A stretch of 64,000 nt of DNA, taken from the NCBI GenBank assembly GCA_034401795.1, contig CM067370.1, positions 61,544,369 to 61,608,368 on the forward strand. The letters run 5' to 3'. The position numbers were made by a program, and so were the translations under genes. This document shows, piece by piece, positions 7,966 through 63,157 of the stretch (positions within the stretch are counted from its first letter, which is position 1; every line of letters starts with the position of its first letter). The DNA comes from Chaetoderma sp. LZ-2023a. Lineage: Eukaryota; Mollusca; Caudofoveata; Chaetodermatida; Chaetodermatidae. Under the pieces are notes generated by a model. It worked only from the letters and a program-made list of their open reading frames with translations, made no database searches and had not been told where the DNA came from.

Positions 7966-8004
7966 TGATACATACGGGTGATACTAAAACCCGGATTCAG
8001 ATCT

Positions 8005-41896: not shown

Positions 41897-41995
<99 letters not shown>

Positions 41996-44900: not shown

Positions 44901-46041
44901 TTCTATACCATCATTGCATCCGGTCTGCATTATAATTAAAATAATTTTCAAATTTTATCCATATTTTTAGGAAGGACTTAGGCTATTTTTCAGCATGAAT
45001 TAGGTAAATGTTAAAGTTTTTAGCTCACCTGGCCTGAAAGGCCAAGTGAGCTTATGCCGTGGCGACCGTCCGTCAACCTTTCCTTTAAACGACCTCAAGA
45101 ACCACAGGGCCGATTTCAATTATATTTGGCATGAAGCATCCTTAGGGCATCAGGATCTAAGTTTGGTCAAATGAACCTGATCGGCCAATTTGGCCGGTGG
45201 CCATCTTGGGTTTAGGCCGATTTTAGGAAAAGTTTAGGATGCAAATCTCAGGAAGTATGATCTAGGACAAGAGCTGAACAAAGTTTGATCAAGGGAACTT
45301 GATTGGTCAAATGGTTCGGCGGCCATCTTGGTTGACCTAGTTGTAGCGAAAATGACTTCTCCAGAACCGCTTAAGGGATCAGGCCGAAATTTGGCAGATA
45401 TGATTAGGGCCTAAGGGCCATTAGAGTTTGTTCAAGAGAAGGTGATCCATCAAAAAACATGGTTGCCGTGGGCCAATCAAAATATAGCGTGTTTGGCGGC
45501 CATATTGGATTTTTTTAATTGATGGAATTTGAGGCCCAAAATGGTTTTCTATGTGTTTTGCGGTATTTACAATTTACAATTTTCAAAACTCAGATAAACG
45601 GTTTGGCGGCCATCTTGGATCATTTTCCCGCCAAAAGCTCCCATACTAAAGCAATGGGAAATTTAAAATATTTTCTTCTCGAGAACTGCTGGTCCGATTT
45701 CAATCCTATCCAATGTTACTGTATACCGCATCAGAGACAAGATCGATTATTTCACCAGATCATGTCAAAGTGGCTTCAAAAGTGGATGCAGCTGCGCAGA
45801 CATTGTATGGGCTCAATGCATGCTTGTGTCGGTAGTCATGTCCAAACACTGGGACTACTACAAAATGGGCATTGACATGTCACGAGCCTTCGACACAATT
45901 AAACGCTCAAAGACCTTAGATGTACTATGCCAGGCCAGTTGCAATGAAGATGAGCTACGAATAGTGAGTCTACTACTTGCAGACACCAAGCTGAGAGTAT
46001 GAGTCAAGTCAGTGAAGTCTGTAGAGTTTGAGACATCAATC

Positions 46042-46073
<32 letters not shown>

Positions 46074-49000
46074 CAGGGAGATGGTCTATCTCCGGTGCTT
46101 TTCACCTGCTACCTTGCTGCTGCATTGAAATCTGTGTGGGAAAGTTCCACAAGACCAAACCCTCCCAGTGTCAATACTGGGCATGCCGCTAGAGATGGAA
46201 TATGCCGACGATGTGGACTTCATAGACGAGGAAAAGATGAGTTCACCCACATATACCTATCGACAAAGCATGAAACTATAGAAAATGACGACCCACTTCG
46301 TGGCGGCGAATCATGGAGGGAAAGTAAAATCCTGGGCTCACTGCTTTGCAGTACTGCTGACATCGCTGCATGCTGCGTCATGGGAAACATAGCTTTCCAG
46401 TCCTTCTGGAAGTAATGGATTCGTAGATCAAAGATGCCCTTGGTAAAAAGTACATTTATACAATGCAACCTGGGTATCCTGCTGTATAACTGTAACAGCT
46501 GGGCAGCTCTAAAGGCAGCTCTAGACAAACTCGATACCTGCCACGACAAACACCTATGCACCATCACTGGACACCGATGGCCAGACAGCATAATTTCCAA
46601 CGATGCACTATACAAGATGTGTAATACATCACCAGTGTCTGTAAAAGTCGCCCAGCAAAGATGGTCCATGTTTGGCCATGTGCTAAGGATGCCAGAAGAG
46701 ACACCAGCACAGAGAGCCTTGGAATTCGCCCTACTCATAGCCAGCAAATACAAAGCCAGGAGAGGACGTCATTGCATAAATCTGCTAAGCGTGTTACGTG
46801 GTGACCTCAAGAAAGCTGGACTCGGTACACTCAAGTCAAGAATGGACCTGAGGAAGCTAAAGATTTCAGCTGAGGACAAGACACAGTGGGCAAAAGCGAA
46901 GAAGGACTGATTGCAGCTGTAGGATGTTTCTACTACTACAGCCACAGAATACAGTAATCATACATAAACATGAGTTCACAAGTACTCACACGGGCTTAAA
47001 ATACAGATGTAAAGTAAACATATTGTGACACTCGCAATGTCATATACTTACTAACATGCACCTCTTGTCACAAACAGTAATTGGGTGAAACAAAACATGA
47101 GTTCGACATACGAGTGAAGGAACACTTACAGAATATTAAAAACTTAAAGATACAACATTTAAATTTACCCAGTCATAATGGACTTCCAAATTATACAAGT
47201 TCTCCCTCACAACCCTGAGGACTCGGATAAAACTTATTAGAAAAGAACAAGAGAAATACTGGATACACCAACTCCATACGCTGGATCCTGTAGGGATCAA
47301 TCATGCAGATGGGTGATTCCAAAATCCTAGTTGTTGTTATGTTCATCAGGGCTTACCAGATCACAATAAAACTATAGAGATTTGTTCTATGCTATCATTG
47401 CATCCTGACTTTATCAAAGGAAACTGATTATTAAATTATTTCCATATTTTTTTGTGGTTTGGACATAGTTTATTGTGGACCAAGAATTAGAAGAATGTTA
47501 AAGTTGTTCAAGTTCTTTTAATTTATCAAGGGTTATACTATTTTAAGAAAGCCTTGTTTTGCAACACTGCCATACATGTGTGATATATGAAAAAACTAAA
47601 GGGCTCCACAAGCAGGACATGGTCCATCTAGTTAGTTTTAAAGTTCAAAGAGGCCAAAAATGACTTCTGCAGTGGTCTTGAGAAATGTCCATGTGTAGAC
47701 CAATAGAAGTCTATTTAGAAAATTTACCACTGGAGTGATAGTGATAAACTTTTAAGAATGATCTTCAGTTGCTCCGCAAATGAACATTCTTTAGAAAATT
47801 TTCTGAAAGACATTTACGGATTAAAGAGTTATAATGGCCATTTCGTTGTCTGGTCTAGACAATCATGATGGAAGTGTTATTATGGCACCCAGATTATTCT
47901 GGTACCAACAATATTGTGCATATGATGATAAGTTTTGTTTTGAAGGAATCTTGTGTATGCGAGTAGATGGTGGGACGTGGTTGTCGGACAGTGGTGTGGT
48001 GTGGTGTGTGGCATTGCGTGGTATCTAATGTATTGTGTGTGTGTGATGTGGTGTAGCGAGGTGCTATGCTGCGATCTGTGATGCACAATAACTAGTTAAA
48101 TTAGGTTAATACATATATTCATAAGTATATTTCATGCATCCTAAAGTATGTGTTCTATCTGGTTATGATATTGAAAGTGTTCATTAATACCAGATATAGG
48201 AGCTATTTCTATTAATATCACACAGGGCATGCCTGTTGGAGGCCACATTCTGAACTACCTTCTGGAGAAATCACGAGTAGTACATCATGCGATTGGGGAG
48301 CGGAATTTTCACATATTTTATCAGATTTTGCATGGAAATCCATCTTTAATGAGTGTTCTTCACCTAAATGGTTCTGCGGATCAATTCTTCTATCTAAAAC
48401 AGGTATGGTAAAGATGTCCTGTACATACAGCATTGTGCTACAAGATACTGAGAGAATCTCTTAATTTAGTTTTAATTTTATTTTTATCACTAAGACAATT
48501 TGTGTAAAAGGTCAAGTGTATTTAATTTGACATGTATTCCTAAGTCAGTGTAGCATAGCTTAAGCTTAATGACAGTGGAACCCATGGTCAGTGGATGACA
48601 TTTGGGGGGAGATTTAATACAAATTTTATAATATATATGGAAATTCACTTATTAAGCAATAGCAGTTCTCCAAACTATACTGTGTTGATCCTAAGATTGT
48701 AAAAAGTTTAGCCAGTTGCTTCTTACTTAACAAGATCTCTTCAAATTAATTTTTATTTCTTTATGGAATGGTAGTTAAAATGTTCACCTCCGGGAATGTC
48801 ATCATTTTCAAAAAAATAAAGTTCACTATACATGTAGCAAATAATATTTCTGTTAGATGCCCATCAGCTATTTGTTTTCTTTGTATTTCAGTCATTATTG
48901 GAAAATTAAAAACAAGTTGTGAGAGTACCCCAGGAAACCCATGTCTGCTTCATATATCTGCCCAGGTCACCATTTGTGTAATAGAAAGGCGTCCCTGCTC

Positions 49001-52000
49001 ATGAGAGATTTTACATAATCAATGCTGATATATTGAATTAAACATTTTAAATATTAAGATCTGATATTGCGTAGGATAGTGAGTTCTATGCGGAATATAT
49101 CATGAGTGTTTAACGTTAATCTGTATTTTATTTTATGTACTTTAGGGTCACAGTATTGATGTAGACTCGATTGATGATGCTCATAATTTCAAAGTTATTC
49201 AAGATGCACTTAATGTCTGCGACTTCTCACTGCAAGAACAGCAGGTAATAGTTGCATTGAAGAGTTTTCTTTCTTATATATTTACACTTGCAATGTAAAA
49301 TTAATAATATTTACTTGTACATGAGTCGTGGATGGAAACTATTATGGCCTATGGCAGAAATGACATCCAGTCAGTTTGTGTTCAATATCGTCAACATTAT
49401 TGCTGCCTGGTTGCTTTGAAATTGACTTTATCAGATTTCTGAAATTAAATAAGGTTAAATTGTTCCAAGCTTGAATGATGGATTACCATCAGTTGATTGG
49501 CTAACTGCCATTATTGTCTCATAGTAACTTTATTTTGAATACCTCCTTTCAATCATGCATATCAGGGCTTCATTTTTGGCAACTTGTGGTGAGCTATAAA
49601 TCGCTCTCCATGATCAATGCTAGGTGAGTGATCGCTCCTCTGGTAGAATCAACATTTGAAATCTCTTGATAAATTTTCGTTTAGATCAAAATATTTGATT
49701 TGGGTTTTAAGATTTGTTATTCATTGGTCCTCTGTGATGAAAAGTTATGCAAGTGAGGGTAATAGCTCACCTCAGAAACGAAGGCCTGAAGCATTATTTT
49801 TTATCACACTGATGTCAAGATGTTACTCATTACCAAGTTATTAGGAAGGCTGATGTACAGTCTGGAAGCACTGTTGTTGTTGAAACCTGTTGCTGTTTTG
49901 GAGCGCAACTGCTTCCATTAATATTGTTTCCAAAGTGAACACCATTTAGAATTTGCAATCAAGTGGAGTTTAAGAAACTGAATTTTCTGTGGTCTAGTGT
50001 TTATGCTACATCTTAGGAATATTGTGAGAACAATTTGGCAACAGCAGTTGTCAGCCATCATTTTCAAAATAATCAGCATTAATTTGCATATAGTGCATAG
50101 TACATAATACCTCTGACAAGATCTGCATCAGGTATTTCTTCTTCATGTATTTCAGGCATTATTTGAAGTTGTGGCTTCGGTCCTTCATCTTGGCAATATG
50201 GTATTCGTGGCAGATGGAGACATTACAAAGATAAAACAACCGAATGAGGTGCAATATATAGCTGAGGTCAGTACAAGTAACGGAACGCTTATTTACTATT
50301 CAGTAATTGTGTTTATATTATTATATGACTGTAATCTGCTCAATGGACTGCCTGGTTTACATGACATTAAAATTGTGCTTCCTTAGCCTTTTAACACTCA
50401 TATCAGCCAAAACTGGCTTCTGCAGTGATCTTGGGAAATGTCCATTTGCAGACCAAGAGAAGACTATTTTTGAAAATTTACCACCAGAATGACTGGCTCG
50501 ATAACCGAGCCAGTCATTCCAGTGGTAAATTTTCAAAAATAGCCTTCTCTTGGTCTGCAAATGGACATTTTCTATGAGAAAATTGAAATTTTCTTGAGCA
50601 AATTCAAGTGTTAAAGGGTTAAAACAGGTGAGCTAAAATGTCTACAGGTTTCTGGCGTGTATTAACTCTTTAATAGTCATGATTTGTGGGGGAAAAAATT
50701 AACAAATTTGCTTAGTGAATGTCCATTTGCAGGTCAAGAGTAAACTATTTTTGAAAATTTACAATTGAAATGGTTGGCTTGATTAAATCGTCTTCTCTTG
50801 GCCTGCAAATAGGCATCCTCATGACCACTGCAGATGCTGGTTTTGGCTGGATTGACCATTAAGGCATTAGAAGTCCCACTGTCTTAATTACTGACCACTA
50901 TATACCCAACCAAGCATCAGGAAAGAGGATAAGAATAATGTTCGAAGTCTGATGACATAATCTTAATTGCTTGAAATTGCTGGGTAAATAAAACACGATT
51001 GTCTCGAAAAATGTCATTTAATCGGAATCCAAAGCTGATAAAGTGACTGTCAGCAGATAAATTTCATATACTAACATGAGCAATCAGAGATTGCAAACCC
51101 ATGCCCTCACATTTTCCTCAACATTATAAAACGTTTCTTAACCGTGTCACATAGAGTGCTTGTTATCCCCATGTTTTAAAAAAAATGTCAGGGATATTGT
51201 AATCGCCTCCATCTATCTGTCTGTCCGTCTGTCCGTCACGCTATCCTCCCAAACCATGGGGTAGAATTAAATCAAATTTGGTATGTGGTTTACCCATATG
51301 ATTCCACTTTGCAAGATGATATTTAGATTTGGCTCCGCACCCAGGGGGGGGGGGGTGTTTGTGTGGGGAGGGCGGCATGGCAGGGGTCAAAAGTTGTAAT
51401 GCAACTCCTCTGAAATTGTTAGACTGAACTCGATCAAATTTGATATCTGAGGTACCCATATGATTGCGGAGTGCAGGAGGTGATTTAGATTTGGCTCTGC
51501 CCCCAGGTGGTGGCGGAGGGGGTCAAAAGGTCAAAATTTAACCTGTGGAAATTGATTGTAATGCATCTCCAAAATCGTTGGACAAACTTCAACCAAATTT
51601 GGTCTGTGGGTTATCCATATCAATGTGGAGTACATGAGCACATTTACATTTGGCCCTGCCCCCAGGGGTGACTGGGGGTGGGCATCAAAAGGTAAAAAAA
51701 ATTGATTGTAATGCAACTCCTCTGACACTGTTGAAATAAATTCAATCAAATTTAGAATGTCAGTTACACATCAATGTGGAGTGGATGAGCGCATTTACAT
51801 TTGGTCCCACCCCCACGGTGTGTGGGATGGGGACAAAAGGTCATGAAATTGATTGTAATGCAACTCCTCTGACACTATTGGATGAAATATGATTGCGGAG
51901 TGCAAAGGGACGTTTACATTTAGCTCCTCCCCCGGGGTGGTTTGTGGGTTTTTGTGTCAAAAGTTCAAAGCGTTGAATGTGGGGATTTACGATGACATGT

Positions 52001-55000
52001 CATCAACCAATCTACCATAATACACACATTTAGTAGCTGATGGTAGCACAATGGACCTTTCCATTTTTAGCTATGCCCCGCCCATCTCTATATAAACTCC
52101 ATCCACACCTCACTCGTGTTGGGATCGATCAATCTCTGAACTTGCTGGCTATCAATTTCTATACATTTAAGCTATTGCCGTCAACCCTTAGCAACCCTGG
52201 TAGTCATTCGATTATGTATAAAGGAATTATTCAACATTGAATGAGCCTCTCCCAAAATCATGAACGAAATTTCATGAAATTTTACGACACCCTGGCAAAT
52301 TATTGCAACACGTAGCCTATGGCAGCAACAGTGTCCAGTCAAATTGGTTTCAAAATATTCAACAGCATGTTTATTAAATAGTAGAGACATAGAATTCATA
52401 CAACGTGTCTGACTATTAAGAGTTAGACGGGCCAAATAGAATCAATTATGATGTAATGATTATGACATCATTCTACACGCCGCTTAGCTGATTATGCTGT
52501 CATATGACGTCAGATGATAGATGGATACTCTGAAAAGGTGAGTGGAGTTCTAGACCGCATCACCTGACCAGGTGTATATATATTCGCTATCATATTTTTT
52601 CTAGTTGCTTGGCTGTCCTGCTGAGAAACTGATGAGTTCTCTACACACCAAAAGTATTGAGACAAAAGGCGAGAGGGTGAGTTACTGAGTTAGTTCAGAT
52701 TAATATTAATCTAACCATCTAATACTCAAGCCAGCCAAAGACAGCTTCTGCGGGAGTCTTGAGAAATGTCCGTTTGTGGAACGAGAGATGACGGTTTTTG
52801 AAAATTTAACATGTGAATGATGACTGGCACGATAAGCGAGCCAGTCGATCCAGGGCCACATTTTCAAGTCATGTTTTTGTTTGTCTGCAAATGGACATTT
52901 TCTATGAGAAAATTACACCGTTTTCAAAATTAACAATATTTGTCATGGTGAGAGGCACTGGAAATGGTAATTTTACAGTGGCTGTGTTAATATCATTAAA
53001 AAATTTTGCTTTATATGTGTAGATTGATTGCTAGTTCTATTCTGCCAAGAATCAGTTTAGCTCATTGTAATCATGTTGTTTTAACTCTCCTGCTTGTTCT
53101 AACTATTAATGGAAAATTAAAAATTTGTCGTATCCACCCATGTATTAGGCTTGTCTGTAGGTCTGTCTGTCTGTATAATTGACAGAATAATTTTGGATGT
53201 AATAGAAAGGTTTGGTTGAGGTAATGAATGCATTCTGAATGAAGTTGGACCTGATCATGCAAAGTTGACTATAGCTACAGCAGCCATTGAATTGGAATTC
53301 CAGCCTCAATTAACCTTTCCAGTTTTAGCCGTGCCCTGTCCTAAGATCCACACACAGTTTGCTCATGTTGGGATCGATCGATCGATCCCTGAACTTCATG
53401 ACTATCAATTTCCAGAAAACTATACAGGTAAGCTGTTGAATATTTTGAAACTAATTTGACTCTGTGCTGTCGCTGCCTGTTATTCAACATGATGTTTATT
53501 AAATAGTAAAGACATAGAATTCGTACAACAACACCAATTATGTGGTTGTGCCGAACTTATCTATGTCATTCATGATGTCATTGATTATAATGTGATCCTA
53601 CACATCACATAGTTGATTATGATGTCATATGATGGATGGATAAACTGGAAAGGTCCATTGGCTCAGCCCTTACAAGGTTGATGATCCAATTAAAACTCAT
53701 TGCTGATGTCCAGTTAGATACTTTTTCCATCAAATTGAGCTTTTTATTATGTGCTCCTGTGCTTTAAATTTCAAGTGACTGGGAATGCACAGGATGTTCG
53801 AAATAAGATGAATCACACTATTTCTTGATTCAAAGTCAATATATTATCTCTCTTTCAGTTGAGCACCCCATTGACAGTGGACCAGTCTGTCTATGCACGT
53901 GATGCTCTCGCTAAAGGTGTTTATGATCGCATGTTCACCTGGATTGTTAAGAAAATCAACAGCTCACTCGAGTCAAAGGTAAGATATTACACTAACCCAG
54001 AGAATAACTAGATCCTATAAATGCTTTTACTATGCTTTATAATTAGCTAGGTAGTTACTGAGCCATTATTTTATTGATAGATATAAAATTATTTTAGTGA
54101 TAGATATAAAAATATTCTTTTCTGGACCTGTACATTTGATTGTGTCTACTTAATACAATTTATTATCCCCCAGTCTGGAAGATGGGGGTTTGGTGGGGAG
54201 GGGGTGGGGGTTAGTGGTTTGTGGGTATATAGCGATCAGCATATCCGTCTGTCCCGTCTTGTCAATGCAACTCCTCTTACAGTTTAGTTACAATTTGTTT
54301 GAAACGTGGTTAATCTAGTCATTACCATTTGAAGATGTGCATGTGCTTTTTTCCGCGACACAAAAATTGTTCATCACAGAGTTATCACCCTTGGCATTGC
54401 CAATCATTTCTTGTCAACTCCTACAGTTTAGCTCCGATTTTTTTGAAACTTGGTAAGTGTTATCATTACCACGTGAAGGTGTGCATGTGCTATCTGTATG
54501 CCTGTACATCCATCCGTCTGTCCAAAATGTCTGTCTGTGTGTCAGTCCATCCATCTCTGACAGTCATTTCTTGTCAGCGCAACTCCGCTTAGAGGTCTCA
54601 ATTGATTAACTTGAAATTGTGTGCACATTATCAGTATTATGTGCAGATGTGCATATGCTTTTTTCGTGACCAAAAGATTATTCATTGCAGAGTTATCCCC
54701 TTTAAATATCTTAAAGCCGATACATAAAACATAAACTGCATTGCCAATCATTTCTTGTCAATGCAACACCTACAGTTTAGCGCCAAGTCTTTTGAAACTT
54801 GCTAGGTGTTATCATTACCACATGAAGGTGTGCATGTGCTATCCGTTTACCTGTATGTCCATCCGTCTGTCCAAAATGTATGTATGTCCATCTGTCAGTC
54901 TATCCATCTCTGACAATAATTTCTTGTCAACGCAACTCCTCCTAGAGGTCTCAACTTAAAATTTTGTCCACATTATCAGTATCATTTCCAGTTGTGCATG

Positions 55001-58000
55001 TACTTTTTCTGTGGCCAGAAGATTATTCATACAGAGTTATAACCCTTTAAATATCTTAAAGCTAATATAATAACTGTATTGCCAATCATTTCTTGTCAAC
55101 ACAACTCCTCCTACAGTTTAGCTGCGATTCTTTTGAAACTTGGTAAGTGTTATCATTACGACATGAAGATGTGCATGTGCTATGCATATACTTGTACCTC
55201 CATCTGTCTGTCCAAAATGTATGTTCATCTGTCAGTCCATCCGCAATGCAACTCCTACAGTTTAGTTACAATTCTTTTAAAACATGGTGAATCTAGTCAT
55301 TACCATCTGAAGATGTGCATGTGCTTTTTCTTGTGGCCAGAAAATTATTCATTACAGATTTATCCCCCTTTGTATACCTTTAAGCCAATACATAAACTGC
55401 AGCCAATTCACATCCCCTAATAGTGAGATAATTGGGGCCCAAGGGAATATTCCATCTTCTGATGGCTCTTGTTTTAATTTTTGACATGATGCTGCTGTTG
55501 ATGATGAAGATGATACTGTATTATACAACTACTAGTGGCTATAACTAGGGCTGCGTGATATACCGATACCATATTTAAAACCGATATCCTTCACTGACGG
55601 TTTCATAACCGATTATAAAAAATAAATATCGAAACACTGAATATGAACATATTTTCAGTTTTTCGTATCAGGATTGTTAAAAATAAAAGATACTAACGAG
55701 CGTGAAAAGCGTAATGAATAATAATGGCCATACTTTCCATTAAGCTACGTTCGGGGCAACTAATAATTGAACGTGGCCCCAATTGCGCATATTGTGTAAC
55801 TCCATGTAACTCGCTGTACGCTGAGAGAAATCAAGCAGTGAATTAATTAAATAAATATCCACTCGTCTTTTCTCTGGTAGTCTCAGATAAATTTGCAATA
55901 TAAAACACAATACTAATGTGGGAATTTGTCATTAAAATTTGTATCGAGGAAAACATTTCTAAACAACGGCATCCATTTTATTTACATCACCGGCTAATTA
56001 ACATAATGCAAAGTCGTCCCAAAACTAAATCGCCCGAATGCATAAAAATCTCGCCAATAAATATAATGCTGAATACATTTTGCTGATTAGGATATAATTT
56101 AAAATAAAATTATTACTCAAACTGTTTTTAAAACATTATCTTCTATACACAATATCATATTAACTTATGAAATTCGCGTTCGCAATATTACAGTTAATAT
56201 TTTCTTCAAGGCATGATTTCGTCCTCGGGCCGAATTGGAAATGAAAGAAGAAAGGGAGGTAATTACATCATAATTAATTATAATCGCGCGATTTACGTCT
56301 TTTCGCAACCTGTTTTGCTGATTTATGATTAATTTTGACACTGTGTGTAATATTTAGGCGGTCTAATTAATAATTTCACTCCCGCCATGATGGATATTAT
56401 AAGGTATATTAAGCTTTAAAGGCGTAAAACGTTACGAATGTATCAGGGCGTGAAAATATGTTCTGTTTTCGTGCTAATTTTTATCATTTAAATTTTTTGT
56501 TTCATGTCCATAAAACCGATATTCGGTTAAAACCGATATGAAAAGTCATATCGAAACAGATATGGCTGTAAGCCAACCCGCGCAGCCCTAGCTATAACAT
56601 TGTGCAGCTGCAATCAATCTTTCATCTTTAACCACAGTTTCTAGTCCTCAACCTGTCCTTAGCTCACTCAGGTTTGTGATTGTCTTCAGAGTCCCTAATC
56701 TTGCTTAGTTTAAGTCATTACATAGCACATTTAGCGGATCTTTGCAGTGGTTACATTTACCAATGTTATAGGTGTAGGTTCAGAACCTCTCTGTGAAGGT
56801 ATGACTGGTGGCTTTCGAAGAACATAGCCAAACATCTTTGTTATGCCACATTTGTTGACCATATTGCACATAGGATATAATTCGTCATTAAAGATTATGC
56901 TGTCTGGCCAGTAATGTTAGTTGATGGTGTTTGCAGTGGTATGCATCATACTTATCTATTTCGATTTGAAAAACTTGTAAACTGCTTTTGACCTGATGCT
57001 AACGGTTAGTTTCCGTTGAGTCTGGATGTCAGTGCACTGTTTGTGTGCTCCTTTTATACTGTTTGGGCTACACTGACCACAATTATACTTCAGTCGACCT
57101 CAGAATCATTGAAGTGCTCCATCACCATCCTGATTCACCGGAAGCCACCTCTTTCCATCAGGAACGTGAGAAATTCTGGATTCATCAGATGCACTGTATG
57201 AGTCCAATCTGGATTAATCATGCCGATTGGTAGCAAATTCTACCTGAAAGTAGTAAAACAAATACATTAATCATACTTATCTATAGCTGTCTTTGATGTT
57301 GCCTAGCTGTGACATTCTTACAGCATCAGTTATACACAGCTTGCATCATATAAGTATAGTTTTCTGGACAGAGGGCTCATTGATCCACAGATTCACAGTT
57401 TCCAACAGACTGGAGAGGAATGTTTCCATTGAAGCAACATAAAGCTATGTCATGTGTATCTGTGTAACCTGTGTATCATTGATTAGGGAGAGGGCATCTC
57501 TAAGTTGACAGAACTTGCACCCAATCCCATTGTACATATATGTTACAATAAAATATGTTTAAATAAAATAATGTCAGACGAGTTGCACATCAATGAGCTG
57601 AGTACTTTGCTCTTCCTCAATTCAGCTCATTCATACAACCGGGTCGCTTTGTCACTAAATTCCTTTGCATCTGTATGTACCATAGGTAATCTCAGTCTTG
57701 ACTTGATTTATGAAGAGATTTCCATTCTTGAGCTGTCCTGCAGCTATTGAGAGGAGCTTATCAAGAAGTTGTCAACGTATAATTAATTTCTGATAATTGA
57801 GAATGAAATAAATGTTAATGTGTATTTTCGAAAAGGGGCATAAGCCATGGAGGAATCCAGTTTTAACTATGCCCCACCAATCTCTAACTAAGCTCCACTC
57901 ACACGTTGCCCGTGTTGGGATTAATCGATCCCTGCACTGTCTGAATCTCAATTTCCTGAAGCTGTTGAATATTTTGAAACAAATCTGACTGGGTGCTGTT

Positions 58001-61000
58001 TCTGCTTATGTCAGCAACAGCGCCCAGTCAAATTAGTTGCAAAATATTCAACAGCATGCTTATTAAATAGAAACACATACAACCTGATAGACTAAGTGTT
58101 TAAGACAGACTAAATCAAGTCATTCATGATGTAATTGATTACGACATCATCAAACACGTCACAGTTGATTATGACATCATATGATTGATGCATAAACTGG
58201 ATTCCTGTATTGAAGACAGAAGATGGTGGTTCTTTAAAATGTATGGTCATAAGGAACCACTAACTTTTGGTCAGATATGGTATTAACGATGGTAAACTTG
58301 TTGCATTTCATGACCATGGACCTTTCCATTTTTAGCTATGCCACGCCCATCACTAGCTAAGCTCCACCCACACCTCGCCGTGTTTGGATTGATCGATCCC
58401 CGAATGCCCTAGCTATCAATTTCCTGAAAACTATACAGGGAAGCTGTTGAATATTTTGTAACTAATTAGACTGGGTGCTGTTGCTGCCATACAGAATATT
58501 TATTAAATAGTAAAAGCAAACAATTTGTACAACAGCCCATAGACCGTCATCAAATATGCGTTCGTGACGTACTTATCGACGCCATTCATGACGTCATTCA
58601 TTATGATGTCATTGTACACACCACGCAGTTCATTATGACGTCATATGATGGGTGGGTACTCTGGAAAGGTGAATTGGTTCTTAGTGTTCATTTCTGATGA
58701 GTCGTGTGGTATGCATTATAGACAGGTGTTATGGTGCTCTTTTCCATTGTGCAGGTGATGCATAGAGGGAATGTGATTGGTCTGCTGGACATTTATGGAT
58801 TTGAAATCTTCGAGTCAAACAAGTAAGTCCAATAGATGGTATCTTCTAAGGTGTAATTTATCATTAATGGCTAGACTATAACCTTAAAGGAGCACCTTAT
58901 GGGGCAGCACCAAATAATGGGTCCCAATAGAGAGGCGGTCGCTACGATCATGTCAATCATTGTATGAAATGTCATTTGGTGATACAATACGGCTTATTCA
59001 GACAGGTTCTCTTTCAACCATCTGTCCTGAAACATTATCTTTGCACAAACTGTTTGACATGTTTTAATCAATGCAAATTCTCTCTTTAATTAACACTTTA
59101 ACTCTTAAGCTGGCTAAAAACTACTTTTTGCAGTGTTCTTGAGGAATTCATTCACAGGTCAAGAGATTAGTATTTTCTTAAATTTATCACTGGAATGTCT
59201 GGCTCGAGAACAGAGCCAGTTAGTTATTCGAGTGATACATTTTTAAAAGTAGTCTTGTTTTGGTCTGCAAATGGAAATTTTGTATGAGAAAATTTGAAAT
59301 GTTCTTGAACAAATTTGATGGCTAAAGGATTAAGATACAAGTTTTTATACCCTTCTAAGATATTGCTTAAGCGTCGTGAGCAGTGGTTTTGAAATGAAAG
59401 TTCCTCTAAGGGATGTCAGATCTGATTATCGTTTCATAGATCCATCGGATAAATTAGAATATCTCTGGGATCAAAACCATTTGAGGTTGATGATGATCTG
59501 AAATCCAGCGACTTGGAGTGAAAGTTCCTCTAAGGGATGTCAGATCTGATTATCGTTTCATAGATCCATCAGATAAATTAGAATATTTCTGGGATCAAAA
59601 CCATTTGAGATTGATGATGATCTGAAATCCAGCAACTCGGAGTCAGTTTACAAGTTGTGAATCTGATGCAGGTTATGCATTCGCTTAAAAAGTTTATGCT
59701 GTAATTTCATCGGTCTGAGGGAGAAACATATGTCTAAATTAGCTATCATCTGAAAAACAATATTGGCATCAAACACCGGCAGCCATCTTGGAAACCATTT
59801 TCCAAATAATAACCTAAAACGAGTCATACAAGATGAAATGGAATATATTAATCTGAGATATCATTGATCTCAGGGTTACAGAGATTCAAATTGCTGGCTT
59901 TCTGCAATGCCTTGTAGGCTAAGGATGATGTTATCAAATGACATAGAGCGATATTATTTAAGTTCGCATTTAAATCTTTTTAAATTTCAGATTTGAACAG
60001 TTTTGCATAAATTATTGTAATGAGAAACTGCAGCAGTTGTTCATTGAGCTAACTCTGAAGTCTGAGCAGGAGGAGTATCTGAGAGAAGGCATTGAGGTGA
60101 GATGTGTTACTACTCACTATGTGTATTATATACCAGCTGCACATTCTGAGCACCTCATAATATTCTGTAGCCCTGCTCTATTGCCTTCTATTTAGTTTTT
60201 GTAGAACCCGTAGCGAAGCTGAGAATAACTCAACTTAGTTATCCACATGACGGTGTCCGATGTGAGAATAATTAGGAAGATGATAAACTATTTGACTGGA
60301 CATTTAAATCAAGTTTTCTGATTTAAATAGGACGTAGTTTTAATCTTTTTCATGATCCCATCAACTCTGTATCATAATGAGAGTAATTTTTTACTTTTTT
60401 CCATACTTTTATGGGATTTTGTATTTATTTGTGCATGATTTATTACACGAATGCCATTGAATTTTATAGTTTTTAGCAATGGACTGTTACTTCACTACTA
60501 GTAAAGTAACAGTCCATTGCTAAAAATATGTTTTTGTTGTTTGTTGTAATATGGTGTTGCTGGTGGCGACGGAGGGTTGGTGTGGTGTGGAGGGTGTGTG
60601 TATGTGGTTATAATGTGCTGGTATTGATGATGTCGTAGTATTGATGATGCTTATAATGTGCTGGTAATGATGATGCTTATAATGTGCTGGTGATAATGAT
60701 GATGATGCAAAGGCGGTGCTGCTGCTGCTGATGATGATATAATATATCAATCAGTAACTGCGGAATGAGATCTTAAAATTATCAGCACTTACCTCGAATA
60801 CAGATACATCTATGAATAATATTCATCCAATTAAAAATAACATGTAAAGGAGGTGGGTGGGTGTGAGGAACACAACCTGGTTGCTAGGACCTTGGAGGAG
60901 AAGGCATACATCTGATTGCTTTGCCCACAAAGGGGAAAACCTACATCTTATTGCTGGGGCCTGAAAGGGGAATATCTACATCTGGTTCAGAGAGGATCCT

Positions 61001-63157
61001 GAGGGAGGGATACATCTTATTCGGAGAGGATCCTGTGAGGAGGACTACGTCTGTTTGCTGGGATCTGACAGAAGGCATACAGCTGATTGCTGCGACCTGA
61101 GAGAAGGATGTACAGATGATTAATGGGTCATTGGACCGGAAGGTCTACACCTCATTGCAAGGTCCTGGGTGGAGGTTTATAGGTAATTGCTGGGGTCTGG
61201 GATGGGAAACCTTTGACTAATTTCTGGACCCTGATAGGTGAAAAGATCTGCTCTTCATGTATATATTCTTTGATTATTTTTACTCAAGTCTATTGTTTTA
61301 TTTTAGTGGGAGCCAGTTGAGTATTTTAACAATAAAGTGATCTGTGATCTGGTGGAAGGCAAGCCGCTTGGTATTATATCTGTAATGGTAAGCAAACAAT
61401 TGGTATTATATCTGTAATGGTAAGCAAACAATTGGTATTATATCTGTAATGGTAAGCAAACAATTGGTATTATATATGTAATCGTAAGCAGACAATTGGT
61501 ATTATATCTATAATGGTAATCAGACAATTGGTATTATATCTGTAATGGTAAGCAAACAATTGGTATTGTATCTGTAAGCAAACAATTCACATATTAATCA
61601 TCCTGTATGACATAGACAAAACACACTTGACCCAATCATGTTACTACCTAATTAGGGGGAGTCAGTACATTAAGTATTTACTTAATCGTTGAAATTTGAA
61701 TGTCGCAATCTCAAGACACCTATACAGGAAAGTTGTTAAATATTTTGAAAGTAATGTAACTGGATCCTGTTGCTGCCTTTAGCAACAGCTCCCAGACAAA
61801 TTACTTTAAAAGATATTCAACATATCATTATTTGTTGCAGAAGGCATTTGAATTTTTTTTAGCTTGTAAGGGTTAAAGTTATTCATTGTATATTGTATAG
61901 TTTTGTTGTATGACATTTAGATCACATACTTGATAGTTTATTAATCTTGTTTTTGCTAATGTCCTTGAGAGAGCTATTTCCCATTAACACATCTTGAATT
62001 CAGCAATTTCATGATCCTATTCTAAACTGTGTTACACTGAGTGGATAATGATGAAGTAGAATCTACTCAATATTTAATCAAAGTGGGGAACAAATGTCTT
62101 TGTGTATAGTTTCAATAAAAGCAAGAATATTGAGAGAGTTTGTATTGTCTGTATTGCCTTGTTAGAATAACGCTACTCCTCAACAAAAGATAAGCTTGTA
62201 CATTAATTGAAAAGCTCCATAGAATATATCCCATTCATACAATCGACTGATCTCTTTTGAGAAAATGGCTCATTTCATTAGTAAATTATTTTCAGTTGAC
62301 AAATGAAATCGCAAGACACTTCAGAATAATAGAGAATAGCACTCTCAGCTCAGCTTCTGGCTATTAAATGATTATTTCTTGCTATGTGTTTCAATCAGGA
62401 TGAGGAGTGTTTACGCCCTGGAGATGTAACTGATGCTACTCTACTCTCAAATCTTATATCAATGGTCGGTAAGCACCCACACTTTGTGAGTCACCAGACT
62501 GCGGATGTCGCCACCAGGAAGACACTGACTAGAGAGGTACTCTACCATAACATAGCTTCATGTGGAAAGCTGTCTTATACAACCATTTAACTCTTTAACA
62601 CTCATATCAGCCAAAAATGGCTTCTGCTGTTGTCTTGAGAAATGCCCATTTGCAGACCAAAAGAAAACTATTTTTGAAAATTTATCACTGGAATGACTGG
62701 CTCGATAAGTGAGCCAGTCATTCCAGTGGTAAATTTTCAAAAATAGTCATCTTTTGGTCTGCAAATGGGCATTTTCTATGACAAAATTGAAATTGTCTTT
62801 AACAAATTGAAGGGTTAAGTCAGTTCGGCACACTAGCTCCTTGTACCAGGCAAAGCTAGCAACATCAGCCAGCCACAGTCTGTTGCACGCTATGGTTAGC
62901 AAACATTCTGATCACAGCCACTACATTGGTCAGCTAGTGACACTTATTAGTGCCGATACAACAATCAGCTGGCCTGTAAGAGTTAACCCCCTTTGTAATC
63001 CAGTTTTACAATTAAAAACAAAATGCACTATATTATATCGTCTTGTTGTCTTTCTTTATAGGACTTTCGGTTGAAACACTATGCTGGTGAGGTCACTTAC
63101 AACATCAATGGTTTCTTAGACAAGAACAATGACCTCCTTTTTCGTGATCTGAAGGAG
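31638..63157 (+). CDS. MYO1C: Class I unconventional myosin, MYO1C/MYO1H-like (partial: exons 1-14, motor domain)
   Basis: This is a single-headed, actin-activated ATPase motor. Vertebrate MYO1C links membranes to cortical actin; that role is family knowledge, not read from this sequence. Coding segments: 31638-31763, 32301-32416, 43470-43668, 44613-44693, 48226-48402, 49146-49244, 50156-50266, 52605-52676, 53859-53978, 58755-58822, 59991-60096, 61307-61387, 62399-62536, 63062-63157. All introns are GT-AG and the segments join in frame to 530 residues. Visible motifs are P-loop GESGAGKT (105-112), switch [10 protein letters not shown] (157-165), TEDS-site Glu326 (16 residues before DALAK) and switch II DIYGFE (379-384). 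The start is the ATG before [19 protein letters not shown], which aligns with the vertebrate MYO1C/H N-terminus. [17 protein letters not shown] also favours MYO1C/H over MYO1A/B. The rest of the motor, the IQ motifs and the TH1 tail lie beyond the window. No promoter was identified; an acceptor-like site near 31514 hints at an upstream 5' UTR exon. Confidence 0.93.
32050..32250. mobile_element. FB1 fold-back MITE in intron 1
   Basis: GACCATTAACGCTTTATTAG and CTTGACCATTAAAAGATTAAT are the ends. The centre GGAATGACTGGTTGATTATC pairs with AGCCAGCCATTCCAGTGG. A loose right half of another copy (CTTCTGGCCTGCAAATGGCC) precedes it at about 31990-32015. It lies 50 bp from the exon 2 acceptor. Confidence 0.85.
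32301..32416 (+). CDS. MYO1C: Myosin-I exon 2 (residues 43-81)
   Basis: It encodes [19 protein letters not shown] and YELPPH, the conserved segment before the P-loop. The acceptor is CTCTCACCAG and the donor AT|GTAAGT. The exon ends after two bases of the Ile81 codon. Confidence 0.94.
32640..34790. other. Intron 2, AT-rich stretch with no recognised feature
   Basis: Mostly unique AT-rich sequence. The word CCTTAAAAAGAAGAC occurs near both 32662 and 33764, which may mark a worn element, but I could not set borders. A 99-codon minus-strand frame at 33925-34224 has no recognisable domain. Confidence 0.4.
34800..35190 (+). repeat. Degenerate tandem repeat R5 (about 140-170 bp units)
   Basis: Two to three units share AGGTAGAGA, GAGATC with CATATTTATGAGAGTTATC, and GAAATCTTTCAGCGGACAT. 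They lie directly before the Penelope-like coding region. They may be the core of a tandem-core element into which the Penelope-like element inserted; a related word string at about 32540-32590 fits that view. Confidence 0.5.
35191..36906 (+). mobile_element. Penelope-like retroelement (RT plus GIY-YIG endonuclease), defective
   Basis: The main open frame is 35504-36853 (449 codons). It shows [14 protein letters not shown] (residues 5-18), [14 protein letters not shown] (64-77), the RT active site YIDD (102-105), [17 protein letters not shown] (163-179), a Cys-rich CTRKNCFFC (331-339) and a GIY-YIG-type nuclease start with IYLLTC (371-376) and YVGET (383-387). This RT/GIY-YIG pairing defines Penelope-like elements. 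Upstream, 35200-35400 encodes the N-terminal part ([17 protein letters not shown]). The block that normally lies between it and DITSLYT, with the LPKIHK-type motif, is absent. The C-terminus ([17 protein letters not shown], ending 36906) is in another frame. The copy is dead but fairly young. It lies sense to the myosin gene in intron 2. Confidence 0.9.
36907..37554. other. Penelope 3' flank and degenerate repeat
   Basis: After the coding end comes AAGCCCGCTAGGAGGCGCTC then TTGTC near 36975-36999, resembling the CTCTTGTT ends of the R families. 37020-37330 contains worn relatives of the 40-bp repeat found at 38690-38975 (TTGGTTA and CCATTAAGTACAAGCTC words). Confidence 0.4.
37555..38262 (+). 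mobile_element. R1 tandem-core element in intron 2
   Basis: It has a complete-looking structure. The left end TATACCCCACG pairs with GACGGGGTATTATGTAATGG as a small hairpin. Four core units follow (TATCGGATCGCTTTGAAAC, TCCAAGATGGCTGCCAGCCA). The right end is GGGGTATTATGCGCCATTTG then GGAGCCCTTGTT. It is the same family as 11985-13150. Confidence 0.75.
38690..38975 (+). repeat. 40-bp minisatellite, about 7 units
   Basis: Unit words are CTCTGTTGATTATCTGCC, TTGGTTAACCATGAACTAC and AAG. The middle four units are nearly identical; the outer ones are diverged. The unit contains a GGTTAACC palindrome. Confidence 0.92.
39055..40606 (+). mobile_element. R2 tandem-core element in intron 2
   Basis: About eight or nine units of 130-170 bp carry CGCTTGGCGGATTTTAACC, CAAATTTGGCTGGAA, TTCTATTCAGATTTTTGATTGG and GGTGGCCATCTTGGATTTT. 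It starts near CACCTGGCTAGAATGGCCTA with GGCTTATGCCATGGCAACC, and ends with CAGGTGAGCG, GAGCCCTTGATCA and TCTTGTTT. A 169-codon frame (39007-39516) is repeat translation. Confidence 0.7.
40607..41452. other. Intron 2 stretch with no recognised feature
   Basis: Unique-looking AT-rich sequence with no repeat family or coding frame that I can name. Confidence 0.4.
41453..41655. mobile_element. FB1 fold-back MITE, right arm shortened
   Basis: AACCCTTTAGCACTCAAGC, then GGAATGACTGGTTTGATAAC, then GTCTTCTCTTGGCCTGCAAA. Part of the right inner arm is missing, so the hairpin is weak. A half FB2 arm (GTTAAATTAGTTTC) follows near 41805. Confidence 0.75.
41899..42010 (+). repeat. (TG)n(CGTG)n microsatellite
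   Basis: About 23 TG units are followed by about 14 CGTG units and GAGC tetramers. Histidine/threonine/arginine frames on the minus strand are artefacts. Confidence 0.95.
42178..42414. mobile_element. FB1 fold-back MITE
   Basis: CACTTTAACACTCAGTGTGA at the left; GGTTAAAGGGTTAAAGGGTTA at the right, with the terminal word repeated. CATTTGCAGACCAAGAGAAG and GTCATTCCAGTGGTAAAC form part of the arms. The 61-bp minisatellite starts ten bases later. Confidence 0.82.
42424..43277 (+). repeat. 61-bp minisatellite, 14 virtually identical copies
   Basis: The unit begins GTGGAACTCATAACACCAAG and ends TGTCTGATAACCCCAAA; starts fall exactly every 61 bp from 42424 to 43217. The copies look identical except for the final edge (CCACAAAGA). 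The array ends 192 bp before the acceptor of the P-loop exon. Such uniformity means recent amplification or ongoing homogenisation. Confidence 0.97.
43470..43668 (+). CDS. MYO1C: Myosin-I exon 3 (residues 81-147): P-loop
   Basis: It encodes [33 protein letters not shown] and [10 protein letters not shown]. It carries the ATP-binding P-loop GESGAGKT. The acceptor is TTATTTCAG, and the first T completes Ile81. The donor is GAG|GTACAC, phase 0. Confidence 0.95.
43720..43785. repeat. FB2-related half element in intron 3
   Basis: GTAACTCTGGATGCGCTAGA, CAACTTTCAGTTAAATTATT and CAAAATATTCAACAGG; the variant is the same as at 28138-28213. Confidence 0.55.
43848..44055. mobile_element. FB1 fold-back MITE, old copy
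   Basis: CCCTTAGTACTCACAC, GTCCATTTGCATGACAG and AAGTTTTCAAAAGCATTCTT are recognisable, but the arms no longer pair well. Confidence 0.5.
44289..44355. mobile_element. FB2 fold-back repeat, short
   Basis: TGTTGAATATTTCGATACTA pairs with TAGTTTCAAAATATTCAATA across GGGATCTGTTACAGTC. Confidence 0.75.
44613..44693 (+). CDS. MYO1C: Myosin-I exon 4 (residues 148-174): switch I
   Basis: It encodes [20 protein letters not shown] and DVQFNFK, the switch I loop that senses nucleotide gamma-phosphate. The acceptor is CTTATGTTGCAG and the donor AAG|GTACAG, phase 0 on both sides. Confidence 0.95.
45019..45712 (+). mobile_element. R2 element, left part, cut by a LINE
   Basis: The left end is the hairpin GCTCACCTGGCC/GGCCAAGTGAGC with loop TGAAA, then TTATGCCGTGGCGACCGTCC. 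Core units follow with GGCCGGTGGCCATCTTGGG and GCAGATATGATTAGGGCC. The core stops near 45712, where LINE sequence begins, so the LINE probably inserted here or replaced the right part. Confidence 0.7.
45713..46960 (+). mobile_element. Non-LTR retrotransposon (LINE), 5'-truncated and broken
   Basis: The translated RT core in three frames shows [56 protein letters not shown], the active site YADD at 46201-46212 (in [14 protein letters not shown]) and a C-terminal part, [18 protein letters not shown], with the frame ending at 46910. This is the order of a LINE RT and its C-terminal domain. The endonuclease is missing, frames change at least twice and a 29-base C run (46044-46072) interrupts the RT. 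The clade is unresolved, possibly RTE-like. Confidence 0.82.
46044..46072 (+). repeat. Poly-C tract of 29 bases
   Basis: A pure C run inside the LINE, preceded by CAATCGG and followed by ACAGGGAGATGG. On the transcript's complement it would be G-rich. Its length is uncertain in sequencing and assembly. Confidence 0.9.
46965..47350 (+). mobile_element. Penelope-like element fragment 2 (GIY-YIG end)
   Basis: It is similar at DNA level to the end of the copy at 35191-36906: CACACGGGCTTAAAATACAG, ACTCGCAATGTCATA, GAGTGAAGGAACACTTA and GGGATCAATCATGCAGATGG. It covers only the Cys-rich to C-terminal part and is worn in all frames. It follows the LINE directly. Confidence 0.82.
47640..47832. mobile_element. 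FB1 fold-back MITE, diverged
   Basis: GCCAAAAATGACTTCTGCAG, GTCTTGAGAAATGTCCATG, TTTACCACTGGAGTGATAGT and GGATTAAAGAGTTATAA; the centre is shortened. Confidence 0.7.
48226..48402 (+). CDS. MYO1C: Myosin-I exon 5 (residues 175-233)
   Basis: It encodes [34 protein letters not shown] and a surface loop that ends FFYLKQ. VGGHI fits MYO1C/H rather than MYO1A/B. The acceptor is ATCACACAG and the donor CAG|GTATGG, phase 0. Confidence 0.95.
48403..49145. other. Intron 5, nothing recognised
   Basis: AT-rich sequence without a repeat family I can name and without coding content. Confidence 0.45.
49146..49244 (+). CDS. MYO1C: Myosin-I exon 6 (residues 234-266)
   Basis: It encodes [20 protein letters not shown] and [13 protein letters not shown], the segment leading to the relay region. 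The acceptor is TACTTTAG and the donor CAG|GTAATA, phase 0. Confidence 0.92.
49245..50155. other. Intron 6, no clear element
   Basis: AT-rich. A worn FB2-like stretch (GTTGTTGTTGAAACC to ATATTGTTTCCAAAGTG) is visible at about 49870-49940. No coding frame of note. Confidence 0.4.
50156..50266 (+). CDS. MYO1C: Myosin-I exon 7 (residues 267-303)
   Basis: It encodes [20 protein letters not shown] and [24 protein letters not shown] is conserved through the myosin family. The acceptor is TATTTCAG and the donor GAG|GTCAGT, phase 0. Confidence 0.94.
50386..50621. mobile_element. FB1 fold-back MITE, full length, best hairpin
   Basis: The left arm 50436-50500 and right arm 50506-50570 (65 bases each) pair with only three mismatches around the loop ATAAC. 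Outer ends are GCCTTTTAACACTCATATC and GTGTTAAAGGGTTA. It lies 119 bp downstream of the exon 7 donor in the sense transcript. Confidence 0.93.
50664..50868. mobile_element. FB1 fold-back MITE, centre partly lost
   Basis: AACTCTTTAATAGTCATG, GTCCATTTGCAGGTCAAGAG, CGTCTTCTCTTGGCCTGCAA and TTGACCATTAAGGCATTAG. It sits in tandem 42 bp after the preceding copy. Confidence 0.78.
51175..52010 (+). mobile_element. R3 tandem-core element in intron 7, opposite orientation to the copy at 20530
   Basis: The end GTCAGGGATATTGTAATCGC with GTCTGTCCGTCTGTCCGTCA is followed by about five core units (CAAATTTGGTATGTGG, ATGATTGCGGAGTGCA, ATTTAGATTTGGCTC, TTGATTGTAATGCAACTCC). It ends near GAATGTGGGGATTTACGATG. 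Both ends match the inverse of the 20530-21595 copy. Confidence 0.75.
52054..52539. mobile_element. FB2-composite MITE in intron 7
   Basis: Ends ACCTTTCCA and TGAAAAGGT are imperfect inverted repeats. After the left end come TTTTAGCTATGCCCCGCCC, AAACTCCATCCACACC and GATCGATCAATC. The FB2 right arm (AGTCAAATTGGTTTCAAAAT) lies at about 52337, followed by AGTAGAGACATAGAATTC. A perfect TGACGTCA (cAMP-response-element octamer) is at 52505-52512. At 486 bp it is longer than its relatives. Confidence 0.72.
52605..52676 (+). CDS. MYO1C: Myosin-I exon 8 (residues 304-327)
   Basis: It encodes [20 protein letters not shown] and KGER, including Glu326 at the TEDS position, which in class I myosins is acidic or phosphorylatable. 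The acceptor is TTTTTTCTAG and the donor AGG|GTGAGT, phase 0. Confidence 0.92.
52712..52925. mobile_element. FB1 fold-back MITE, diverged, next to the exon 8 donor
   Basis: CCATCTAATACTCAAGCCAG, GTCTTGAGAAATGTCC, the centre GGCACGATAAGCGAGCC and TGTCTGCAAATGGACATTTT. It begins 35 bp after the exon 8 donor. Confidence 0.78.
53313..53654. mobile_element. FB2-composite MITE in intron 8
   Basis: Terminal inverted repeats ACCTTTCCAGTTT and AAACTGGAAAGGT match perfectly over 13 bp. The interior has GTTGGGATCGATCGATC, TTGAATATTTTGAAACTAAT, then TATTAAATAGTAAAGACATA, CATGATGTCATTGATTATAA and GATGTCATATGATGG. Length is 342 bp with no coding capacity. Confidence 0.85.
53859..53978 (+). CDS. MYO1C: Myosin-I exon 9 (residues 328-367)
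   Basis: It encodes [20 protein letters not shown] and [28 protein letters not shown] is the reference point of the TEDS rule. The acceptor is CTCTTTCAG and the donor AAG|GTAAGA, phase 0. Confidence 0.95.
54165..55478 (+). mobile_element. R4 tandem-core element in intron 9
   Basis: The left end is the small hairpin CCCCCAGTCTGGAAGATGGGGG-like sequence at 54167-54188. The core alternates units with CTACAGTTTAGC, TTTTGAAACTTGGTAAGTG, TTATCATTACCACGTGAAGG and GTGCATGTGC with (CCATCCGTCTGTCC)-type runs, at least six times. The right end is GGGAATATTCCATCTTCTGA then TGGCTCTTGTTTT. Frames of 69-113 codons inside are repeat translations. Confidence 0.72.
55546..56590. mobile_element. Non-autonomous hAT-type DNA transposon with 8-bp target duplication
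   Basis: The ends TAGGGCTGCG and CGCAGCCCTA are perfect 10-bp inverted repeats. They are flanked on both sides by the 8-bp direct repeat GCTATAAC (55538-55545 and 56591-56598), the target-duplication length of hAT elements. Motifs ACCGATAT, CCGATACC and AACCGATT cluster just inside both ends, as expected of subterminal transposase-binding repeats. The 1045-bp interior is AT-rich and has no transposase frame, so it must rely on an enzyme from elsewhere. Intact ends and a perfect target duplication suggest a fairly recent insertion. Confidence 0.92.
57000..57235 (+). mobile_element. Penelope-like element fragment 3 (C-terminus)
   Basis: A frame at 57045-57230 encodes [16 protein letters not shown] and then [20 protein letters not shown], ending in W and a stop. 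It parallels [17 protein letters not shown] at the end of the copy in intron 2. Only this tail is recognisable, and it is more diverged in sequence, so it probably belongs to a different Penelope-like subfamily. Confidence 0.72.
57851..58206. mobile_element. FB2-composite MITE, complete, in intron 9
   Basis: Terminal inverted repeats AGGAATCCAGTTT and AAACTGGATTCCT match perfectly (13 bp). The order is left end, AACTATGCCCCACC, AAGCTCCACTCACACG, the FB2 palindrome with both arms (TTGAATATTTTGAAAC and TTGCAAAATATTCAA, centre about 58006), TTATTAAATAG, CATGATGTAATTGATTACG, GACATCATATGATTGATG, right end. Length is 356 bp. No clear target duplication. Confidence 0.87.
58320..58670. mobile_element. 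FB2-composite MITE with two CRE octamers, in intron 9
   Basis: Ends ACCTTTCCA and TGGAAAGGT are perfect inverted repeats. The left half has AGCTATGCCACGCCCATC and GATTGATCGATCCCC, then one FB2 arm. The right half carries TGACGTCA at 58589-58596 and 58636-58643, plus near-matches (TGATGTCA). TGACGTCA is the ATF/CREB binding consensus. The copy ends 84 bp before exon 10. Confidence 0.85.
58755..58822 (+). CDS. MYO1C: Myosin-I exon 10 (residues 368-390): switch II
   Basis: It encodes [20 protein letters not shown] and SNK, with switch II DIYGFE. The acceptor is TTGTGCAG and the donor AA|GTAAGT. The last codon (Lys390) is split after two bases. Most family members have Ser or Gly here before [12 protein letters not shown]. 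Confidence 0.94.
59092..59331. mobile_element. FB1 fold-back MITE in intron 10
   Basis: AACACTTTAACTCTTAAGC and GATGGCTAAAGGATTAAG are the ends. The centre GGCTCGAGAACAGAGCCAGT is palindromic, and TTTGGTCTGCAAATGG marks the right arm. Confidence 0.82.
59343..59830 (+). repeat. R1-related tandem repeat, 124-bp unit
   Basis: Two nearly identical 124-bp copies start at 59395 and 59519 (TGAAAGTTCCTCTAAGGG, ATTATCGTTTCATAGATCC, TTGATGATGATCTGAAATCC). A third diverged unit with GGCAGCCATCTTGGAAACC follows. Unit phase and words follow R1, and TTTTTATACCC precedes it, so it is an R1 subfamily or relic. Confidence 0.7.
59991..60096 (+). CDS. MYO1C: Myosin-I exon 11 (residues 390-425): relay helix
   Basis: It encodes [20 protein letters not shown] and [15 protein letters not shown], the strongly conserved relay helix. 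The acceptor is AATTTCAG, and the first A completes Lys390. The donor is GAG|GTGAGA, phase 0. Confidence 0.96.
60470..60526. repeat. Perfect 21-bp inverted repeat in intron 11
   Basis: The arms at 60470-60490 and 60506-60526 (core GCAATGGACTGTTAC and GTAACAGTCCATTGC) are perfect complements with a 15-base spacer that itself contains TACTAGTA. I cannot link it to the FB families. Confidence 0.9.
60610..60740 (+). repeat. GATGAT/GCTGGT-rich simple repeat
   Basis: TTATAATGTGCTGGT recurs three times, separated by GATGATG runs, followed by GCTGCTGCTGCTGATGATGA. Serine/histidine-rich minus-strand frames over it are artefacts. Confidence 0.8.
60868..61225 (+). repeat. Degenerate minisatellite, about 40-bp unit
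   Basis: About nine units carry TACATCTGATTGCTG, GGGACCTGAGAG and GGATCCTG variants. They differ by many substitutions and small indels, so the array is older than the 61-bp and 16-bp arrays. Confidence 0.75.
61307..61387 (+). CDS. MYO1C: Myosin-I exon 12 (residues 426-452)
   Basis: It encodes [20 protein letters not shown] and LGIISVM, part of the lower 50K region before the actin-binding helix-loop-helix. The acceptor is TATTTTAG and the donor ATG|GTAAGC, phase 0. The last 18 coding bases and the donor are repeated in tandem in the intron. Confidence 0.95.
61370..61587 (+). repeat. 32-bp tandem repeat that copies the exon 12 end and its 5' splice site
   Basis: Units start at 61370, 61402, 61434, 61466, 61498, 61530 and 61562 (the last is 26 bp). 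Unit 1 is the last 18 bases of exon 12 plus the first 14 of intron 12. Units 2, 3 and 6 are identical to it and keep TGTAATG|GTAAGC. Unit 4 has ATCGTAAGC and unit 5 ATGGTAATC. Using a downstream donor would add VSKQLVLYL and a stop in frame, so only the first site gives a full protein. Confidence 0.97.
61730..61823. mobile_element. FB2 fold-back repeat in intron 12
   Basis: GTTAAATATTTTGAAAGTAA pairs with TTACTTTAAAAGATATTCAA across CTGTTGCTGCCTTTAGCAAC. Confidence 0.8.
62399..62536 (+). CDS. MYO1C: Myosin-I exon 13 (residues 453-498)
   Basis: It encodes [31 protein letters not shown] and [17 protein letters not shown] is a class I signature. The acceptor is TTTCAATCAG and the donor GAG|GTACTC, phase 0. 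Confidence 0.95.
62589..62817. mobile_element. FB1 fold-back MITE in intron 13, full length
   Basis: AACTCTTTAACACTCATATC at the left, GAAGGGTTAAG at the right. GGAATGACTGGCTCGATAAG and GTGAGCCAGTCATTCCAG form the centre. The arms are about 65 bp with few mismatches. It starts 53 bases after exon 13. Confidence 0.9.
63062..63157 (+). CDS. MYO1C: Myosin-I exon 14 (residues 499-530)
   Basis: It encodes [20 protein letters not shown] and [12 protein letters not shown], a hallmark of myosin heads. The acceptor is TTTCTTTATAG and the donor GAG|GTAATC, phase 0. The next exon is not found in the remaining 843 bases. Confidence 0.95.

Follow-up and report, generated by a model that had tools for sequence, protein, structure and literature searches.

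A minisatellite that supplies a gene with several splice donors has a described counterpart in a human gene, which we take to be the interferon-induced gene 6-16 (IFI6). The 6-16 array reportedly begins near an exon end and runs into the intron, and it is said to comprise about 26 copies of a 12-bp unit that keep the reading frame, with use of its downstream donors extending the protein by a few residues. The title of the report by Turri, Cuin and Porter (1995, Nucleic Acids Research, NAR 23:1854), as cited in PMC2915984 and PMC3618361, describes a minisatellite giving multiple splice donors. Variable minisatellites with units averaging 30 bp are reported in PMC2812944 to alter gene structure among human paralogues, and donor duplication has been followed in human OCT1 (PMC8137991) and in minigenes with paired donors (PMC9225289). 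Here we describe a 32-bp tandem array across the 3' end of exon 12 of a myosin-Ic-like gene in the mollusc Chaetoderma sp. LZ-2023a. The window, the whole stretch of DNA that was analysed, spans 64,000 nucleotides of contig CM067370.1 (assembly GCA_034401795.1, forward strand, positions 61,544,369 to 61,608,368), and all coordinates below are those of the window.

The array lies at 61370-61587 and consists of six 32-bp units followed by a seventh of 26 bp (Table 1). Its first 18 bases are within exon 12 and all remaining bases are in intron 12. A sequence-only reading of the window had proposed that the end of exon 12 is tandemly duplicated together with its 5' splice site, as seven repeats of 18 exon and 14 intron bases. 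The duplication and the composition of the units were confirmed for an exon 12 at 61307-61387, and the numbering of the exon is correct if the first coding exon is the one with the ATG at 31638, as is assumed throughout; the 32-bp period applies to six full units, the seventh being shortened. Units 1, 2, 3 and 6 are identical at 32 of 32 positions and share the donor ATG/GTAAGC (the slash marks the exon end), so that the three downstream units that were said to keep an identical donor are indeed found, as units 2, 3 and 6. Units 4 and 5 each depart from this sequence by three changes (29 of 32 positions agree), one of which is common to both, and unit 7 has one base substituted and is 6 bp shorter through a deletion. 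The array scored 371 with Tandem Repeats Finder (period 32, 6.6 copies); 100 dinucleotide shuffles of 61000-62000 reached no more than 55. Degenerate arrays with a period of 32-35 bp are also present upstream of exon 12, in intron 11 (60907-61121), and their unit differs from that of the exon 12 array.

Donor strength was scored by computed U1 pairing energy and by a small matrix built from the other 13 donors of the gene. Like the 6-16 array, the myosin array starts in an exon and extends into the following intron, and its units carry donor sequences, four of the seven at a pairing energy of -8.0 kcal/mol (units 1, 2, 3 and 6, here called full-strength) and three at -4.3 to -5.1 kcal/mol (units 4, 5 and 7). 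Unlike the 6-16 array as it is reported, it lies in a conserved motor domain of another animal, has seven copies of a unit that is not a multiple of three, and would bring in a stop through any of its full-strength downstream donors. By its anatomy, the myosin array belongs to the 6-16 kind.

When an intron is gained through a tandem duplication, its donor and its acceptor both derive from copies of one duplicated stretch. The myosin array shares with such cases (e.g., PMC4974935) a tandemly duplicated splice-site sequence. Intron gain from the repeat was rejected: the acceptor of intron 12 lies 811 nt past the array, the intron ending at 62398, and matches to the unit in the window are confined to 61368-61587. 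The OCT1 (SLC22A1) variant rs35854239 likewise duplicates an exon-intron junction and creates an equal second donor, the use of which shifts the reading frame and leads to a premature stop, but it involves two 8-bp copies and is polymorphic in people, in contrast to the seven copies of 32 bp described here (PMC8137991). The minigenes of PMC9225289 resemble the array in having identical donors tens of bases apart (52 nt there and 32 nt here), one acceptor and introns longer than 250 nt; they differ in being artificial, in being expressed in human cells and in having two sites with a stronger donor sequence.

Its predicted protein marks the host gene as a myosin of class I that is myosin-Ic-like. 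A myosin-Ic sequence guided the exon search, and one missing exon was located by a scan of open AG-GT segments. AG precedes all 13 internal exon starts and GT follows all 14 exon ends of the resulting model. Its 530-residue translation matches the Myosin_head family with an E value of 1.9e-206, and the top matches among solved structures are two myosin-Ic sequences (1.7e-212 and 1.6e-210) followed by myosin-Ib (1.4e-181); the likeness to myosin-Ic is drawn from these sequence matches. The joint between exons 12 and 13 is in frame and ungapped against solved myosin-Ic through GIIS[VM/IL]DEECLRPG. In the next 40 kb, the remainder of myosin-Ic is represented by nine matches, which lie between about 14 and 34 kb beyond the end of the window, cover residues 522-858 of a myosin-Ic sequence and stop short of the end of the tail (TH1); seven have E values of 1.1e-4 or better and two are weak (0.47 and 0.82). 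Since the Myosin_head match is accompanied by these seven further exon-like matches, the gene does not appear to be a relic, and it looks intact over the portion examined. The array is a row of competing donors, as the sequence-only reading had held, four full-strength and three weaker, and it is situated in a real myosin gene that is open in all 14 exons of the window.

The intron at the exon 12/13 joint is not common to all myosins of this animal, because the exon of a paralogue on C7 (L024:7263-7370, minus strand) continues across the joint and is intron-free there, and another three myosin matches (C14, C2 and C6) span query residues 452-453 unbroken.

The consequences of donor choice were computed by joining exon 13 in turn to each of 31 GT sites within 61307-61700 and translating the product. 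The conserved protein results from 61388 alone. Each of the 21 sites at 61420-61688 adds VSKQLVLYL and then a stop, with the predicted chain ending at residue 461. The earlier claim that any choice other than the first adds nine residues and a stop therefore stands for these 21 sites and fails for nine others, of which five are in frame and open (61316, 61337, 61352, 61382 and 61403) and four reach other stops (61321, 61344, 61371 and 61414). For donors 61420, 61452 and 61548 the stop lies 2, 34 and 130 nt upstream of the exon 12/13 junction, respectively, and exon 13 places 138 nt more before the following junction. Messenger RNAs (mRNAs) with stops so far ahead of a junction are targets of nonsense-mediated decay (NMD) by the usual rule. 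Since the stop precedes the exon 12/13 junction, use of a full-strength downstream donor would be expected to lead to NMD. As a candidate for the truncated motors suggested in the sequence-only reading, the chain ending at residue 461 would be without the rest of the motor, and its mRNA is expected to decay.

Two of the open sites would add small in-frame variants at the GIISVM/DEEC joint of the motor if splicing were leaky: a donor at 61382 drops two residues (V-M), a donor at 61403 inserts VSKQL, and from both the frame is open to the end of exon 14. Such variants are extremely improbable, as both donors are poor (U1 pairing energies of -1.4 and -4.2 kcal/mol, respectively, and a matrix score of 0.8 each versus 6.4 for the main site) and the joint is ungapped relative to solved myosin-Ic.

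The explanation that we prefer, with a probability of roughly 0.68, is that a 32-bp minisatellite arose locally by a tandem duplication across the boundary between exon 12 and intron 12. The extra copies would fall in the intron, and the exon end and its donor would stay intact at any copy number because the first copy still adjoins the unique part of the exon. Observation and computation supply its starting points: an array made of these units in an open gene, the reading frames given above, and four donors whose computed U1 pairing is equal. From there, we infer that exon 12 is recognised by exon definition, that the donor closest to the upstream acceptor (61388) is mostly used, and that a minority of transcripts take a downstream copy, acquire an early stop and are degraded by NMD. 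In that case the array would be nearly silent, at a cost in mRNA yield that is modest at most.

Exon 12 is 81 nt long and is flanked by introns of 1210 nt (upstream) and 1011 nt (downstream), lengths that suggest exon definition. Among the human events with near-equal donors treated in PMC9225289, the upstream donor is preferred (60% overall), with long introns on both sides favoring the upstream donor and short introns on both sides the downstream one. Exon 12 falls in the class with long introns on both sides and, therefore, use of the upstream donor is predicted. In five minigenes from the same source, with 365-nt introns and a pair of identical donors separated by 52 nt, the upstream donor was used exclusively. 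The gene architecture, these minigenes and the OCT1 case lead us to expect splicing mostly at 61388 with a leak that is destroyed. In OCT1, the downstream donor of the 8-bp duplication accounted for 38-52% of use in minigenes and for 0.3-0.6% in liver, and the authors argue for decay plus some native preference for the correct site (PMC8137991). The sequence-only reading had stated that the spliceosome must choose the first among equal sites. No special device is needed for this choice, as exon definition predicts the first site (PMC9225289). As a whole, that reading is partly supported.

Several points weigh against a strong preference for the first donor. In PMC9225289, weakening both identical donors resulted in exon skipping in the two larger constructs, the upstream preference after the strength filter is 60% overall, about 60% of human events favor the downstream donor when no strength filter is applied, and Reed and Maniatis (1986) are cited with regard to a preference for the downstream donor in vitro. 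The rule of proximity derives from human genes and two-donor minigenes with the stronger CAG/guaagu, whereas there are seven donors here. The OCT1 minigenes used both donors nearly equally (PMC8137991). Finally, the exon 12 donor ranks fifth of the 14 donors of the gene by U1 pairing energy and last of the 14 by the matrix (6.4 versus 6.9-10.2), a comparison that favors the 13 others as they score themselves, and a weak first site could leak more.

If downstream donors were used substantially, the array could be a working switch through which the dose of the motor is tuned, with NMD claiming a set or regulated fraction of the transcripts and the effect growing with the number of units. The equal computed U1 pairing of four donors, the early stop common to all 21 downstream GT sites and the near-equal donor use in the OCT1 minigenes (PMC8137991) are in keeping with such a switch. 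However, the donors of half of the six extra units are weaker, so that conservation of the decoys is not apparent, the other three (units 2, 3 and 6) may be no more than recent copies, and exon definition predicts upstream use (PMC9225289); we consider a switch unlikely. Quite unlikely is an extension to a length-variable dial of gene dose, in which unequal exchange would alter the number of units and hence the share of transcripts destroyed through downstream donors, individuals would differ in the amount of motor and the exon end would be homogenised with the intron copies.

All three diverged units are weakened at the donor and, for this reason, the decoy donors show no sign of conservation. 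The weakening is as expected if decoys are unneeded; it is no proof of selection against them, the changes being too few. The proposal that RNA structure selects the first donor was rejected, since the folds are ordinary (z -1.33, with 20 of 200 shuffles as good, and z -0.81, with 40 of 200). The first donor was never the most accessible of the seven in four folding settings, and its computed accessibility in the first setting (0.021) lies inside the range of the other six donors (0.009-0.056).

Rather than competing, the extra donors might help, with additional U1 bound in the intron strengthening the definition of exon 12. Substrates given a consensus donor at their 3' end bound more U1 and SRSF1 and were spliced more in human extracts (PMC8724738). 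That donor sat at the substrate end and was not one of several identical sites within one intron, none of the present tests favors helper donors, and we regard the proposal with strong doubt.

No indication was obtained that the array belongs to a dispersed repeat: 27 bases of the unit, searched for exactly, have three matches in the 2.44-Gb assembly, all in the array (exact matches only, so that diverged copies escape), and no matches to the unit outside the array were found in the window and eleven other loci. Tandem repeats are easily miscounted, and the extra copies could in principle stem from an assembly error. Private differences between units and the location within a 200-Mb contig argue against an artefact, as does a search with 973 bases beside the array, in which the single full-length match among the 70 listed (40 of 3166 candidates scored) was the query itself; we judge an artefact very improbable. 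On the same search, and among the candidates scored, the idea that the locus is duplicated or present as a second haplotype was rejected. The other 69 listed matches correspond to a short dispersed element at query positions 91-294, in either orientation. A partly palindromic dispersed element is located at 61682-61877 in intron 12, and many copies of it occur on many contigs in both orientations.

The position of the array on a splice site is not exceptional for this gene. Of 27 splice sites in the gene model of the window, one is inside an array. Random placement of the 13 merged arrays in the gene is expected to put 1.76 of them across a splice site, compared to one observed, and at least one crosses in 87% of random placements; the null takes no account of selection against arrays that fall on exons. 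A single array across a splice site is within what is predicted for so array-rich a gene. No array was found within 10 nt of the 18 approximate exon ends downstream of the window (two of the nine underlying matches are weak) or within 15 nt of the match ends at ten other myosin-match loci, these being ends of protein matches and not proven splice sites (of 20 such loci, the other ten belong to this gene).

Table 1. Units of the exon 12 array and features of the host gene model (window coordinates; U1, computed pairing energy in kcal/mol)
Feature	Position	Strand	Donor	U1	Remarks
Coding exons 1-14	31638..63157	+			530 residues, stop-free; gene runs on beyond the window
Exon 12	61307..61387	+			27 codons, phase 0; phmmer E 4.6e-08 to solved myosin-Ic for the exon alone
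Unit 1	61370..61401	+	61388	-8.0	last 18 exon bases and first 14 intron bases
Intron 12	61388..62398	+			1011 nt
Unit 2	61402..61433	+	61420	-8.0	identical to unit 1
Unit 3	61434..61465	+	61452	-8.0	identical to unit 1
Unit 4	61466..61497	+	61484	-4.6	three changes; -1 G to C; donor ATC/GTAAGC
Unit 5	61498..61529	+	61516	-5.1	three changes; +5 G to T; donor ATG/GTAATC
Unit 6	61530..61561	+	61548	-8.0	identical to unit 1
Unit 7	61562..61587	+	61574	-4.3	substitution and 6-bp deletion; donor TCT/GTAAGC
Exon 13	62399..62536	+			acceptor AATCAG

Other repeats are found in the gene and upstream of it. A 61-bp unit in 14 copies (99% match) occupies 42423-43278 and ends 191 bp upstream of the start of exon 3, and intron 4 contains open frames at 46032-46910 that may resemble the end of a retrotransposon reverse transcriptase protein. 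Two long arrays of GAATAACAGCCAT-like units at 199-3527 and 8003-10154 are in opposite orientation (the second is the reverse complement), and the region that they flank, at about 3676-7571, is occupied by repeats that are rich in CCTAG and have a period of about 11 bp or a multiple of it. A 16-bp unit in 51 copies (99% match) is present at 14931-15747.

The exon 12 array is a real example of an already known kind, and it is useful as a natural test of donor choice. For the choice among equal donors, PMC9225289 and PMC8137991 offer two-site constructs and two-copy alleles, respectively. The myosin gene provides a natural set of four identical and three graded weaker donors, 32 bases apart and with one acceptor, of which the first alone leads to a working protein. 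The array is therefore suited to gauge how strongly exon definition favors the first site when several equal sites follow, and it illustrates that a repeat unit that is not a multiple of three can occupy a coding boundary while the protein stays unbroken.

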